Source: Spirogloea muscicola
Lineage: Eukaryota > Streptophyta > Zygnematophyceae > Spirogloeales > Spirogloeaceae
Reading direction: 5' to 3'
Assembly: GCA_009602725.1 (NCBI GenBank)
Contig: WELB01000059.1
Location: forward strand, 562,112 to 619,957
DNA length: 57,846 nt
The position numbers were made by a program, and so were the translations under genes. This document shows positions 12,292 to 55,713 of the stretch, one piece after another. The notes beneath the pieces were generated by a model. The model made no database searches and was not told the origin of the DNA. It worked only from the letters and a program-made list of their open reading frames with translations. How positions within the stretch are numbered: the first letter of the stretch is position 1; every line of letters starts with the position of its first letter.

Positions 12292-12310
12292 GGGCTAGCT
12301 TTTCCAGCCC
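12292..12310 (+). repeat. Retroelement 3'-tail stem-loop
   Basis: The core GGGCTAGCTTTTCCAGCCC is a near-perfect inverted repeat (one mismatch from the usual GGGCTGG/CCAGCCC stem). TCCATTGTTCATTCTG comes before it and CCTCAATGAGCGAGCC after it, as in the other copies. Confidence 0.75.
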
Positions 12311-12338
12311 CTATCCTCAATGAGCGAGCCCTTCTCTC

Positions 12339-12535
12339 GCTGGGGAAGGCCAGCCCTAAAAGAATGGACAAGGTTCAAAGAGCCGAAAGGCGTTTAAACC
12401 ACACAGCGATGCACGAGACCATAGCAGATGGGAGCTTAGTAATTACGTGTTAGCAGCATCTATCCGAAGTAACTCGCAGCTGGGCAAGAGGCACTCCGGC
12501 TTCTGTCAGCCTCCTCCCCAGGGCCGGTGGCATGG
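12339..12535 (-). mobile_element. Family-1 3' tail, inverted copy b
   Basis: On the minus strand the last codons and stop are followed by CGCCTTTCGGCTCTTTGAAC, CTTGTCCATTCTTTT and the hairpin (12356-12339). This copy points at fragment a, so the two are tail-to-tail. Only some 20 residues of degenerate coding sequence remain. Confidence 0.7.
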
Positions 12536-13338
12536 TTAACAGCGCTCCCCACTTACGCTGCTCTAAGCCTGCCAGACGCTGTCTTCCGGACGGCTGTACA
12601 CCGGCTCCTGGGCCTCCTCCCTCTCTGCCTCGTCGGTGTGGTGCAGTGCGAGTGCGGACCCGCAACGCCGACGCTGCAGACCTGGCTGCACGCATGCTCC
12701 GCTGTGCGCACGGGCGCGAGCGGACCAGGTCTCACGACCGCCCGCGGGACGGCATGTACGGCGTGTTCCCGGAGGCTGGCTACACAGTGGCAGTGGAGAA
12801 CACGTCGGCCATGCCCATCCAGCTGGGAGCGGACGGTCAGCTCCATACACGGCGCGCTGACCTGGTCGCCATCCCGTCTGCAGGAGGTCCCGCATCATTG
12901 CGGATGTCGTAACCTCCGTTTCCATCGACTCTGCCAACCCACAAAATCGGCTGTGACAGCTGGGCACGCGATCAGCATGGCGGCCCGTGGCAAGGAGCGC
13001 AATTATGCCGATCACCCTGCTGGCGATGAGTTCGCGGCACTTGCGATCGACGTGCACGGGACCTCCGGCAGTCGCTGGCTGGACCATCTGCAGCGGTTGG
13101 CCCGGCAGGCCATCGATCGTCGGCCGGGTCAGCCTGGGGAGCTGCCCGGCTTCGACGCTGCCGGTCGCTTACCCAGGTTTTCCGAATGAGGCTGTCTGTC
13201 TCCTTCCAACGCTCCCTGGCTCACGCAGTCCGCTTGCGGGCAGGCCGCGCTGTGGCTGCTGCTTCTGGGTCTCGCAGGGGTGCCGCTTTCCTAGCTGCGA
13301 GTTCCTCCAACTTGCTGCTGCTGACTCGTGGTTACTAA
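12536..13338 (+). mobile_element. Family-1 retrotransposon, 3' fragment c
   Basis: This copy reaches further 5' than copy a. It has the zinc-knuckle region (CGA.. with HLRC-type pattern; RMLRCAHG), TVAVENTSAMPI, HTRRADLVAI and KERNYADHP (the endonuclease Lys/Asp region), then LLLLTRGY and the stop. Three frames are needed, so it is a pseudogene. The tail and hairpin (13425-13444) follow. Confidence 0.75.
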
Positions 13339-13424
13339 GCTCCCATCTGCAGTAGTTTCGTGCAGAGCTGTGTGGTATAGGCGCCTTTCGGCTCTTTGGA
13401 CCTTGTTTATTCTCGTCCTTTTCT

Positions 13425-13508
13425 GGGCTGGCCTTTCCCAGCCCCGACCTTCTCTGGAAGAACCACTTTCTTCTTTCATTTTATAAAGTGGCTGGGAAAG
13501 GCCAGCCC
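13425..13508. repeat. Pair of facing tail stem-loops
   Basis: A plus-strand hairpin (13425-13444) belongs to copy c and a minus-strand hairpin (13508-13491) to copy d, about 50 bp apart. This is a second tail-to-tail pair, as with copies a and b. Confidence 0.75.
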
Positions 13509-52793: not shown

Positions 52794-54596
52794 TCAAGGG
52801 CAGTCCTTGTCAAAGCCGCCCCCGCCATACATGAATGAGCTAAGAGGCCGTCGTGCGCCTTTGCTTTGCTCCTTGTTGACAGGCTCCCACTCGTGCTTGA
52901 GATCGTAGCACGGCCGCATGAGGGTAACCTCCGCAAGCGCCGTGGCTGCGTCGTGCTCCTTGCCGTCCTGGTCCGTGTACATGATCTTCTCGAAACGCCC
53001 ACCCGGCCCTGTCGGCCGGTTGGGCCGGACGCCGCTGCCCATCGCCGTCCGTGTGTGCATGCCCAGCGGCCACGAGTTCACGACCTGGCCGCCAAAGCTG
53101 GCGAACAATGCGGGCCGGCCACCAAAGGTGCTGGCTGGCCAGTGGCCCACAGTGTCGCCACCCACCCTGGCCCGCCACGCGCCAGACTTCTTGTCCTGCA
53201 TGTTGGCAGCCATATTTATGATTGGGCCCTCAGCCTCAGGTTCCTAGTCAGGTACCCTGAGTAGCATGCGTGACAGCTTGAGAAGAGAGAGGGTGTGGTT
53301 TGACATCATAAAATTCATAACAATAACAAGACATCGTAATGCTTATATGATGATCATAATCATCAAATCAGCACTCAAGGGCTTAGGGAGCGCAGGATTG
53401 AGAAGGCAGCAGGGCAAGCGGAGCAGGCGAGCTTTGAGATGCTGGGGAGCAGGCGACCTTTGAGATGCTGGCGACCAGCATGGCCTGGCCAAGTTGGCCG
53501 CTGGTGGTCGAGAGCGTCGAGAGAGCCTGCCCAACACGCACCAGCCGACTCGTCTGAGCAAAGAGACCGCAATCGAGGTCGTAGCAGTCCACGTGGCCCT
53601 CCTCCTGACGTGACGAGTTCTGGCGCAAACCCACATGGAACCATGACCACATGGGCGTCAGCAGCCTTCGCATTACCAGTGCAAGTAGCACAAGGGCCAC
53701 TGAGGGCAAGACATCTCAAACATCAGGTCTCTCACGTACTACATGCAACGCCGACTAGGCATCACAAAACGTGAAAGAGTACGTTTCTTTGCAACTTCTG
53801 CAACTACAGCAAATCCGGCAACTAGCCACTGCTGGCACATGCTGATAGTCGTGGATGAGTTAGGAAGTTCAGGAGCACCGTGTAGTAGACGTAGAGATGC
53901 GGCCGCTGATCACCATAGCGGCTCGGATTTACCTGCACGGCCAATGTTGCACAAACGGCACATTCAGTCATGTCATGGGCTGGTGGCAGCAACGGTGTCG
54001 CGATGCGGGTGGCAATGGCAGTGGCGGCGCACCATCCAGCCAATCTCGAGCAACGACGTGGCATCGGAGAGCTGCACGCAAGCGGCGCTGAACTCCATGA
54101 CGTTGACGTGCACAAAGGGCTGGTGGACGGACATGGTCGCACGCGCGCCCAAGAACGCCGTGTGCAGCGGCGCTAGCTTCAGGTCCATCATCGCCGTCTG
54201 CACAGGCGGGCGTCAGTCGTGCGCAGCAGCTATAGCCGGGCTGCGTTCTGGCTCGGCTCAGATTTCCCCCATAACATGGTGCAGTTACTTGTGACGGTTT
54301 AGACTGAGGCTGAGTTTGAGATCTTAACCTGCATTTAGCTCGAGATCCCAGACTCGAAACCAGTAATAGAATTCATAACAGCCACAACACCTCCTCCCAT
54401 GTCATGGGCTTGCACAAAATTCCACGAGACGGACCTCAATGGCGATGTAGATGCCGCGGAGCTCGCCGCGGGCCTCGGAGAAGAGGTCGACGCCGCGGTA
54501 GTTGACCTCCTCCGCCGCCGCCATGGCCACGAGCAGGACGCAGGCCAGCGCGCAGGGGCGGCTGCCCCGACGAGGCCCTCTCGATGCCGGCGCCAT
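52794..54596 (-). CDS. Secreted neprosin-type peptidase (DUF239)
   Basis: Exons are 54596-54435, 54197-54033, 53932-53879, 53604-53458 and 53195-52794; every intron is phase 0. A signal peptide (CALACVLLVAMAAAEE) starts the protein. The order then follows the neprosin domain: TAFLGARATMSVHQPFV, EFSAACVQ, EIGWM-VNPSRYGD, LYVYYT, DCYDLDCGLFAQTSRLVRVG, DKKSGAWRA, GHWPASTF, FASFGGQVVNS, MGSGVRP, CYDL and a terminal FMYGGGGF. Neprosins are secreted glutamic proteases that cut after proline in the extracellular space or wall. The Glu in VNVMEFS and another in the C-terminal half are candidate active-site residues, but I cannot assign them by eye. The usual N-terminal prosegment seems absent or very short. 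The family call is strong; activity is unproven. Confidence 0.85.
53428..53476. repeat. Tandem duplication at a splice donor
   Basis: GAGCAGGCGAGCTTTGAGAT and GAGCAGGCGACCTTTGAGAT lie about 24 bp apart, each followed by GCTGG. The second contains the donor of neprosin exon 4 (complement), and the first has GCTTTG in place of CCTTTG, i.e. a lost donor. Confidence 0.75.
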
Positions 54597-55045
54597 TGGT
54601 AACACTGCTGGTGCGAAAGCGCCCACCAAGCTGCGGCTTTGTTGGGCGCCCAGAGACCGCCGCGCCCCGCTTCAGGCCGCCGTCGCTGCCGCCATGGCGG
54701 CGAGGCGGGCAGCCGGGCTGCGCCAGGAGGCGCGGCGGGCGGCTCAGCTCACCTGCACTAAATCACGCCCTTCCCACAGCACAACTTCGCGCGGCTCTCC
54801 CTCTCCCTCTCTCCTCTCCCCCCCCCCTCTCTCTCTCTCTCTCTCTCTCTCTCTCTCTATCTCTCTCTCTCTCTCTCTCTCTCTCTCTCTCTCTCTCTCT
54901 CTCTCTCTCTCTCTCTCTCTCTCTCTCTCTCTCTCTCTCTNCCCTCCCCCCCCTCGCACCCCCCTCGTCCCTCTCCACTTGCCTTGGGCCGCCCACCCTC
55001 CCTCACTCATTCTCTGCTCCAGAAAGAAAAAGAAATCTAACTAGG
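54597..55045. other. Neprosin upstream region and CT tract
   Basis: GC-rich sequence to 54780 (probable promoter and 5' leader on the minus strand), then the CT microsatellite. Frames through the tract are low-complexity only. Confidence 0.55.
54828..54940. repeat. CT microsatellite, about 110 bp
   Basis: CT units with one TATCTC interruption, ending at an undetermined base (54941). The length is probably under-assembled. Confidence 0.95.
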
Positions 55046-55215
55046 CGAGCTGTAGACGCCTTTTCGCGTATTTGAAACAAACGAAGGCCAAATTAATCAA
55101 GTACAAAGAACAGAAGATCCATTTTCCATCTCAGCCGGAAGCATATCTGCACGACGTGCATTGCCTAGATTGGCATTGTTCTGAAGGAGAGTGTGGAACC
55201 GAGGACCTAAGGTTG
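55046..55215 (-). mobile_element. Family-2 3' fragment
   Basis: On the minus strand LGPRFHTLLQNNANLGNARR and ADMLPAEM match the C-terminal part of the family-2 protein. The following sequence matches its tail (TTTGTACTTGATTAATTTGG, CGTTTGTTTCAAATACGCG). The last 60 residues are deleted. Confidence 0.65.
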
Positions 55216-55218
55216 TTA

Positions 55219-55713
55219 GGCCCCTCCGAACCTTTGTCAATGCTTTCCGCAGCCCTTGCCCCCATTGGGAGTGCCACTTCTTCTTTCCACCACTCATGCG
55301 CCGGCTATCCTCGAGTCCCCCCCTCCCCTCCCGCCACGCCGCCGCATGCAGCTGCATGCGCCCTCGGCGGGGCGATGGCGGCTCTGGGCGTGGGCTCGCG
55401 GCTGGTGGGCGCGCGGCCAGGCGGCGCAGATTGCAGCGCCAGGGTCGCCCAGGCTCGCCGGGTGAGCGGATGGAGGTGGGAGTGGGGTTGGCACTCTTTC
55501 CACAAGAAAACTTGCGGCTGCTGATATGTTATCAGAGTGGCTGCAAAAGCCAGCCAGGTGCATACAGAGGGTATTCATGCTATACTGGCGGAGCCACAGG
55601 CTAGGCAGCCAGTGTGCTCTTAGTAAGAAAGAATTAGCTCTCCTAATTTAAGGCTGTGAGAGGCCAGCCCCTTGGACCTTGTTCAATCTTTCTGGGCTGG
55701 CTTTCGTAGCCCC
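55219..55713 (+). repeat. Hairpin-unit remnants and GC-rich filler
   Basis: AGGCCCCTCCGAACCTTTGT with CGCAGCCCTTGCCCCCATTG but without the GGGCTGGC arm (55219-55275) looks like a unit with its 5' hairpin arm deleted. A complete unit lies at 55694-55713 with the TTCCCTTTGGGAGAGCTCAC suffix. Confidence 0.6.

Follow-up and report, generated by a model that had tools for sequence, protein, structure and literature searches.

What is a short stem-loop that recurs some thirty times in a single stretch of algal DNA, and by what means has it spread? The question is posed by 57,846 nt of the Spirogloea muscicola genome (contig WELB01000059.1, positions 562,112 to 619,957; C59:562112-619957 in our numbering, where C-numbers are contigs and L-numbers are loci fetched from the genome), the whole of which is called the window here. 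A sequence-only reading had regarded the stem-loop as the 3' tail of one retrotransposon with a restriction-like endonuclease (RLE), parasitised by several independent short elements. The analysis reported here makes it very probable that the module is the 3'-terminal part of the 3' untranslated region (UTR) of a superfamily of non-long-terminal-repeat retrotransposons (long interspersed nuclear elements, LINEs), where it would act as the common recognition tail of many lineages. The module lies in tail position, it is shared among lineages, its copies are truncated at their 5' sides, and some of them are near-identical. Copies that stand by themselves appear to be very short LINE stumps and not separate short interspersed nuclear elements (SINEs) living on the tail.

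The module as a probable LINE tail

In the window, the exact pattern GGGCTGGC-N3..9-CAGCC has 22 matches, 18 on the plus and 4 on the minus strand, site 24765/24766 being the single place matched on both, while a covariance model finds 33 places (28 plus, 5 minus) that span positions 265 to 55744 (Table 1). The model was built from 48 diverse tails and applied with an E-value cut-off of 0.1, the weakest accepted match having E 0.008; window copies supply ten of these 48 and match by construction, and the E-values of the tool are rough. All 16 coordinates listed in the sequence-only reading are hairpin copies on the strand given there, and its estimate of about 30 copies on both strands was exceeded, with one copy (265) lying outside the range it had considered. 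Throughout the genome (153.1 Mb in 471 contigs), the exact core with a spacer of 4-8 nt has 14,014 forward and 13,810 reverse matches (27,824, palindromic sites entering twice), as opposed to 3 + 3 matches for the core read backwards as a control; a longer hairpin pattern with up to two mismatches gives 3,999 + 3,978 matches versus 0 in the control. The core has a genome-wide density of about 182 per Mb, roughly half that of the window, where 22 exact matches fall in 57.8 kb. From the sampled loci, 82 of 218 candidate hairpins were left out for having few upstream pyrimidines; because they overlap or are unrelated, L007/L008 and L009-L038 do not enter several of the counts.

The tail has a regular layout. 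A stretch of UTR peculiar to each lineage, 51-125 nt long, separates the stop codon from a box resembling TTGTYCATTC, which is followed by a run of pyrimidines and the hairpin GGGCTGG-loop-CCAGCCC; behind the hairpin stand a suffix that differs between lineages and a pyrimidine tract, for example CTTTCTTC. Both the upstream box and the several suffix classes proposed from the sequence are thus real features. A pyrimidine-rich stretch, about 8-13 nt long, was present 3' of the conserved tail in the seven tail types examined, and because CTTTCTTC is invariant across eight class B elements, it is part of the element. The classes A-F and H are hereafter called group 1; the class labels used in the counts of open reading frame (ORF) homology, box-suffix pairing and folding are rough patterns.

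The position of the module was surveyed at 70 distinct LINE ORF ends gathered with L[ST]R.Y* as search motif and independently of the stem. The GGGCTGG hairpin of group 1 was found 66-125 nt past the stop codon at 34 of them, and a related TGGCTGG hairpin at 51-52 nt in six of the seven ORF ends that belong to the L79 lineage, so that the core follows 40 of the 70 at a distance of 51-125 nt. Other tails stand behind 22 ORF ends (12 of the Gr lineage, one of which, L069, also has a hairpin match at 129 nt, and 10 of group I), and no tail was detected within 150 nt of the stop codon in the remaining 7. In the window, 10 of the 33 tails stand behind a LINE ORF end, and 36 of 136 sampled tails have ORF homology on the same strand within 260 nt upstream. 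Some copies of classes A, B, C, D, E and H and of L79 extend to a LINE ORF end, and 3 of 20 class F copies (L143, L147 and L150) reach ORF-end remains, as read by eye. These findings support the module as a retrotransposon 3' tail, carried by LINEs of R2-like layout, and as one core has been kept in no fewer than two main lineages (group 1 and L79), it is taken as a common recognition element. The group I LINEs (L083-L094) end instead in variants of GAATTGGCCTCCCTTTCAATTCATGCGCCCCGCGCGCC, a different hairpin pair with many copies. Their hairpin GAATTG..CAATTC was considered as a compensated stem and rejected, the inner pairs varying among 44 contexts that are not all of group I.

The proteins suggest an element with a zinc finger, a reverse transcriptase, a CCHC motif and a putative RLE, the last assigned by motif. 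Two long ORFs were read, one of the Gr lineage (1267 aa, L122) and one of L79 (1278 aa, L123). Both match Pfam RVT_1 above its cut-off (E 1e-18 and 3e-17, respectively), in the PDB the L79 ORF matches R2 best (9nl3, E 1e-6), LINE-1 ORF2p chains being among those that follow, and the Gr ORF has a weak Pfam C2HC zinc-finger match (E 4e-4, below the cut-off). No apurinic-type endonuclease was matched in Pfam at E<=1 in either ORF. At the C-termini, CECG..H..RC and RRxDLV..DVV are largely conserved in the protein alignment, and we take these to be the CCHC motif and the RLE of R2-type LINEs; a C-terminal RLE of the PD-(D/E)XK type is accordingly a putative assignment. Of the earlier proposal of an RLE-bearing LINE, the LINE part is supported, and the endonuclease part is a matter of motif. 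A comparison of 13 C-termini of about 92 aa gave similarities of 59-74% from one group-1 class (A, B, C or D) to another, of 48-54% from these classes to L79 and of 34-39% to Gr; Gr and L79 are 43% alike. About 40 Gr copies with 98-99% protein identity were listed genome-wide. The 5' starts of Gr and L79 elements (L127/L129 and L124/L125) lie near a common motif AACGGCTCCC (GATTGAACGGCTCCCC and GACCGACCCAACGGCTCCC), a possible common 5' RNA element, and the true 5' end of L79 may lie further upstream than set, as a common C-rich stretch is present there.

Long copies of the superfamily also resemble one another closely. A search with the A-lineage reverse transcriptase listed many long open frames, some lengths of which are probably inflated by N runs, and the 3' ends of 20 matches, rather than the long ORFs themselves, were compared. 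The same B tail was found at eight of the 20 loci, with 97.7-100% identity over 260 nt of ORF end (L175, in which no ORF end was found, and L190, with a Gr ORF end, being outside this identity table), and a D tail at four, with 99.2-100% identity; C tails occurred at two, an A tail at L186 and a further B tail at L188. Because their copies are near-identical, the B and D lineages look recently active. Clean target-site duplications flank single copies at window 15184 (12 bp) and at L058:1485 (11 bp), a further one of 11 bp was read by eye at L104, and 5' truncation is clear.

We suppose that the reverse transcriptase of each LINE would recognise the tail and start target-primed reverse transcription there, and that synthesis may often halt after about 50-200 nt; such an early halt would leave many copies as tail-only stumps of about 100 nt. 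Other LINEs whose 3' ends are conserved are well known to begin target-primed synthesis by recognition of the tail (PMC3747384).

Short copies and RNA pairing

Whether the short copies are LINE stumps or SINEs should be visible at their 5' ends. The upstream extent over which a tail can be aligned to another copy is ragged, being below 60 nt in 70 of 136 tails and up to 470 nt in the others with no clear peak, and 13 of 20 class F copies have only 18-36 nt of common upstream sequence. DNA searches with truncated queries were discounted for this question because such a query starts at its own truncation and cannot reveal a fixed 5' end. The reading in which the tail of one RLE-bearing LINE is used by several SINEs with heads of their own, its hairpin being under structural selection, could appeal to the many copies that consist of the tail alone, to the differing suffix classes, to some two-sided change at the outermost pair of the stem, to the LINE/SINE pairs with common tails described for Chlamydomonas (PMC3747384), and to 238 nt upstream of the F tail that are common to L131 and L136 with 91% identity, an unexplained case that could be a duplication or a longer element. 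It is nevertheless improbable, as classes A-E, H and L79 run into LINE ORF ends in some copy, and F does so by eye, and as no common 5' boundary was seen. B-box-like sites occur at 4 of the 136 tails versus a mean of 9.1 in mononucleotide shuffles, i.e., less often than by chance; ARAGORN reported no tRNA in the fetched loci (it also missed a window tRNA found by Rfam), and Rfam gave no match in 20 of them. In the sample, a few hundred of about 28,000 cores, no SINE body with a fixed 5' end unrelated to the LINEs was seen. The SINE reading was consequently set aside, with no fixed 5' ends, class F bodies, B boxes, or tRNA or Rfam heads to sustain it and L131/L136 as the sole exception, and independent parasites of the tail are not supported in this sample. 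The picture that the earlier reading had named as its own refutation, in which all copies are decayed 3' ends of a single LINE, largely describes what was found, except that many LINE lineages are involved. A non-mobile origin, in which duplication spread a motif of the host, for instance a terminator or a processing signal, would account for the high copy number on both strands, but we give it hardly any credence in view of the tails behind LINE stop codons, the 5' truncation, the target-site duplications at single copies and the near-identical long copies on different contigs.

The sequence-only reading had also held that the stems persist while the loops change, as expected if RNA structure is selected. 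RNAalifold, applied to the 48 tails, gave five pairs with one double change and a covariation term of -0.05, and these inner five pairs are almost invariant. The outermost pair (GC in 23 rows, UA in 3, CG in 2, UG in 2 and unpaired in 18) has both its bases changed in 7 of the 48 rows and is the only one at which two-sided change is repeated. Over the whole stem including this pair, there are 8 two-sided cells versus 2.8 in shuffled alignments (none of 500 shuffles reached 8), with a covariation score of 0.098 versus 0.057, figures to be read knowing that related rows may exceed shuffles without any structure, that a partner slid by +2 or +3 scores higher (0.119 and 0.149), and that the alignment, which was hand-picked mostly out of 117 diverse tails with the stem as seed, is biased against seeing change. 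One tail outside the alignment, L004:1422, may hold one more two-sided change in its arms. Selection on pairing is thus only weakly indicated.

Another possibility is that the box pairs with the suffix in an outer stem (CATT:AATG in B, CAAT:ATTG in A and CCAT:ATGG in D) and that the classes have co-evolved by compensation. The box is indeed paired with the suffix in folds of B and D tails, and among 54 copies the two are associated, TCATT going with AATGGG in 14 of 17 cases, CCATT with TATGGG in 10 of 14, and CAATT or GAATT with CATTGG in 13 of 18; this association, however, lies between lineages and may reflect descent alone. The outer stem is part of the minimum free energy structure in 17 of 20 copies of class B, 15 of 16 of class E and all 5 of class H, but also in 8 of 20 control windows, and in 6 of 20 A, 7 of 20 C, 3 of 5 D and 6 of 10 F copies. 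Boxes pair better with their own than with shuffled suffixes (-9.65 versus -8.32), yet the swap test on 231 copies (90 of them unclassified) was null, own pairs scoring -9.65 and swapped pairs -9.67, with C boxes pairing best with B suffixes. Since, moreover, the test of the single changing position gave p 0.12 and class A requires a one-base slip, we consider such an outer stem, with compensatory co-evolution of the classes, doubtful.

Several observations weigh against the interpretation of the module as a recognition tail common to LINE lineages. Covariation is weak, and what is conserved in the inner arms is their sequence. The gain in folding over shuffles is modest, with mean z of -2.2 in B, -1.7 in D and -1.35 in H, and of -1.0 in A and E, -0.8 in C, -0.45 in unclassified copies and -0.3 in F, next to -0.35 in control windows. 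Most of the DNA in the ORF-end survey had been fetched for holding the hairpin, and its shares are not genome shares. An alignment-profile search of the PDB returned no R2 chain, duplications of at least 8 nt are not in excess (20 of 129 copies versus about 21 expected), and the shared upstream sequence of L131 and L136 has to be added to these points.

Possible tail exchange, insertion sites and the window

Tails might also be an interchangeable module: lineages might swap them, bodies with foreign tails might still transpose, and the reverse transcriptases might draw on a common pool of RNA. The case that raises this idea is L187 on C135, in which a B-type ORF end leads into a D-type UTR and tail (L187:278-410); the 523 nt examined past the stop codon contain no B tail. 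Its ORF end differs from that of L185 (C321) by 3 mismatches in 278 nt, and L185 continues with a normal B tail (278-410). A 24-nt pattern across the B/D joint has six exact places in the genome, including C135, and eight when one mismatch is allowed (C21, C28, C84, C126, C135, C159, C44 and C98), on different contigs, with 0 in the control, but only about 5-7 of the 24 bases come from the B side and the other places need not be chimeras. These places could be a transposed tail-swapped LINE, a duplicated nested insertion with loss of the B tail, or UTR variants of the D lineage. Because so few bases of the pattern are B-side, we lowered our expectation, and tail exchange is put forward as a tentative suggestion, itself on the unlikely side.

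As for a preference of the elements to insert behind existing tails, a weak trend was observed. The first four copies with a located 5' start all lay 21-37 nt behind another tail. Among the next 20 copies (8 with a full 5' start, 2 truncated and 10 without), a same-strand tail within 40 nt was present in 1 of the 8, and L122, 5'-truncated by about 8 nt, had none by eye in its 60-nt flank, giving a pooled 5 of 13. For short copies, a tail lies within the adjacent 100 nt in 23 of 129, versus 10-21 of 121-127 in farther bins. Tail pairs 20-130 nt apart comprise 13 on the same strand, 6 convergent and 1 divergent, and 8 of 99 plus-strand gaps measure 30-130 nt versus 1.1 expected if uniform, gaps of up to 600 nt being likewise in excess.

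Table 1. Tails and LINE ORFs located in the window (positions in nt from its first base)
Feature	Position	Strand	Basis
Tail, outside the range of the sequence-only reading	265..337	+	covariance model E 8.4e-08
Class B tail, 88 nt past ORF end LLSRSY*	12268..12342	+	covariance model, ORF-end survey
Weak tail, ORF end 125 nt upstream on minus	12318..12378	-	covariance model E 4e-4
Decayed LINE ORF, C-terminal fragment	12527..13189	+	ORF list, similarity; no Pfam match
Class D2 tail, 86 nt past ORF end	13396..13476	+	covariance model, ORF-end survey
Decayed C-terminal LINE ORF, upstream of tail 13457-13531	13291..14031	-	ORF list, similarity
Class D2 tail, convergent with 13396-13476	13457..13531	-	covariance model, ORF similarity
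Tail, by eye inserted within LINE ORF	14275..14349	+	covariance model, similarity
Class D tail, decayed	14650..14722	+	covariance model E 5e-4
Class B tail, ~75-nt copy between 12-bp repeats GATTGCGGCGTC	15161..15234	+	covariance model, duplication search
A-lineage C-terminal ORF, end RLLTRDY*	16252..16929	+	ORF list, comparison
Class B tail	17445..17518	+	covariance model
Class A tail, 82 nt behind class B tail 17445..17518, same strand	17529..17601	+	covariance model
Gr-lineage C-terminal ORF, 277 aa (lineage with a different tail)	17948..18781	-	ORF list, ORF-end survey
L79-type tail, 52 nt past ORF end LLTRGY*	19409..19477	+	covariance model E 0.0074
Class D2 tail	19523..19597	+	covariance model
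Class A tail	20073..20144	+	covariance model
Class A tail, behind ORF 20664-22106	20515..20587	-	covariance model, ORF similarity
A-lineage C-terminal ORF, 480 aa, frameshifted versus relatives, which lie on many contigs	20664..22106	-	ORF list
Class D tail	23153..23227	+	covariance model
Class B tail, 98 nt past ORF end LLSRGY*	23860..23933	+	covariance model, ORF-end survey
Class A tail, 97 nt past ORF end LLTRNY*	24369..24442	+	covariance model, ORF-end survey
Decayed tail	24513..24584	+	covariance model E 7e-4
Class D tail behind LINE ORF end	24743..24816	+	covariance model, ORF similarity
Class C tail, 89 nt behind class D tail 24743..24816	24833..24905	+	covariance model
Class A tail	25515..25588	+	covariance model
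Class D2 tail, 89 nt past ORF end LLTRGY*	27758..27831	+	covariance model, ORF-end survey
Class F tail	28053..28124	+	covariance model
Class F tail	28238..28311	+	covariance model
Class F-like tail	28415..28488	+	covariance model
Class C tail	51542..51614	+	covariance model
Tail, 123 nt, exceeds model length	51713..51835	+	covariance model E 2.3e-06
Class E tail	51849..51922	+	covariance model
Tail	52215..52286	+	covariance model
Class A-like tail, weak	55227..55287	+	covariance model E 0.0019
L79-type tail	55503..55578	-	covariance model E 0.008
Tail, divergent to 55672..55744	55624..55686	-	covariance model E 0.0024
Tail	55672..55744	+	covariance model E 1.3e-11

Other features of the window may be mentioned briefly. 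Around three tails, at 24444-24982, a G+C-rich unit of 31 nt, CCGCCCCTCGGAGTGGGCCTCGGGCGGCCCC, is present five times, and two Gr-lineage copies, at 17850-18149 and 26530-26829, are 99% identical over 300 nt at a distance of 8.7 kb. Inside the LINE cluster, an AT-rich block at 22100-22950 looks like a candidate for inserted organelle DNA; Rfam places a tRNA (RF00005, E 1.2e-07) in it at 22855-22925, and ARAGORN reported no tRNA in the window, at that site included. The window also appears to encode a nepenthesin-like protease, in keeping with a green-algal source. A long CT microsatellite at 54803-54950 ends in an undetermined base, and an N run lies within 33344-33958.

Relation to known systems

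If the interpretation as a shared LINE tail is correct, the genome of this alga houses several LINE lineages that have R2-like layout, were active recently, carry one tail core and perhaps exchange tails, and the choice of RNA by a LINE reverse transcriptase would become directly testable through natural tail swaps. For annotators it is a caution that tens of thousands of SINE-like short repeats can be LINE stumps. Among the papers found by full-text searches, with subscription papers mostly outside, there was no report of several RLE-bearing LINE lineages with one tail in an alga.

The tails of stringent-type LINE/SINE systems, such as eel UnaL2, plant L1 and Chlamydomonas RandI/SINEX, resemble the present one in that a 3' hairpin is common to elements of one genome; here, however, every element seen to carry it belongs to a LINE lineage, the sample yielded no SINE and covariation is weak. 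Hairpins common to LINEs and SINEs, and the RandI/SINEX pairs of Chlamydomonas, are described in PMC3747384. Dualen/RandI is a LINE of green algae with an RLE (PMC4640811 and PMC3747384), which the elements described here also appear to encode by motif; Dualen has an apurinic-like endonuclease as well, and no such Pfam match was obtained in the two ORFs. Zepp and Zepp-like elements form nested, 5'-truncated arrays in green algae (PMC8226300), and the present arrays, too, consist mostly of nested 5'-truncated 3' ends, but Zepp is of the L1 type, while the two ORFs here have no apurinic endonuclease match and the copies lie on many contigs. The R2-type and other RLE-bearing LINEs (R2, R4, NeSL/Utopia, HERO and CRE) differ from the elements of S. 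muscicola in that the latter occupy many contigs, without an Rfam match to rRNA or snRNA in either the window or the 20 loci scanned, and comprise several lineages with one tail core. They share with them a single ORF with an N-terminal zinc finger, a central reverse transcriptase, and a C-terminal CCHC and endonuclease-like motif, with R2 as the best PDB match, and the domain layout of Utopia (PMC4640811) matches that read here.

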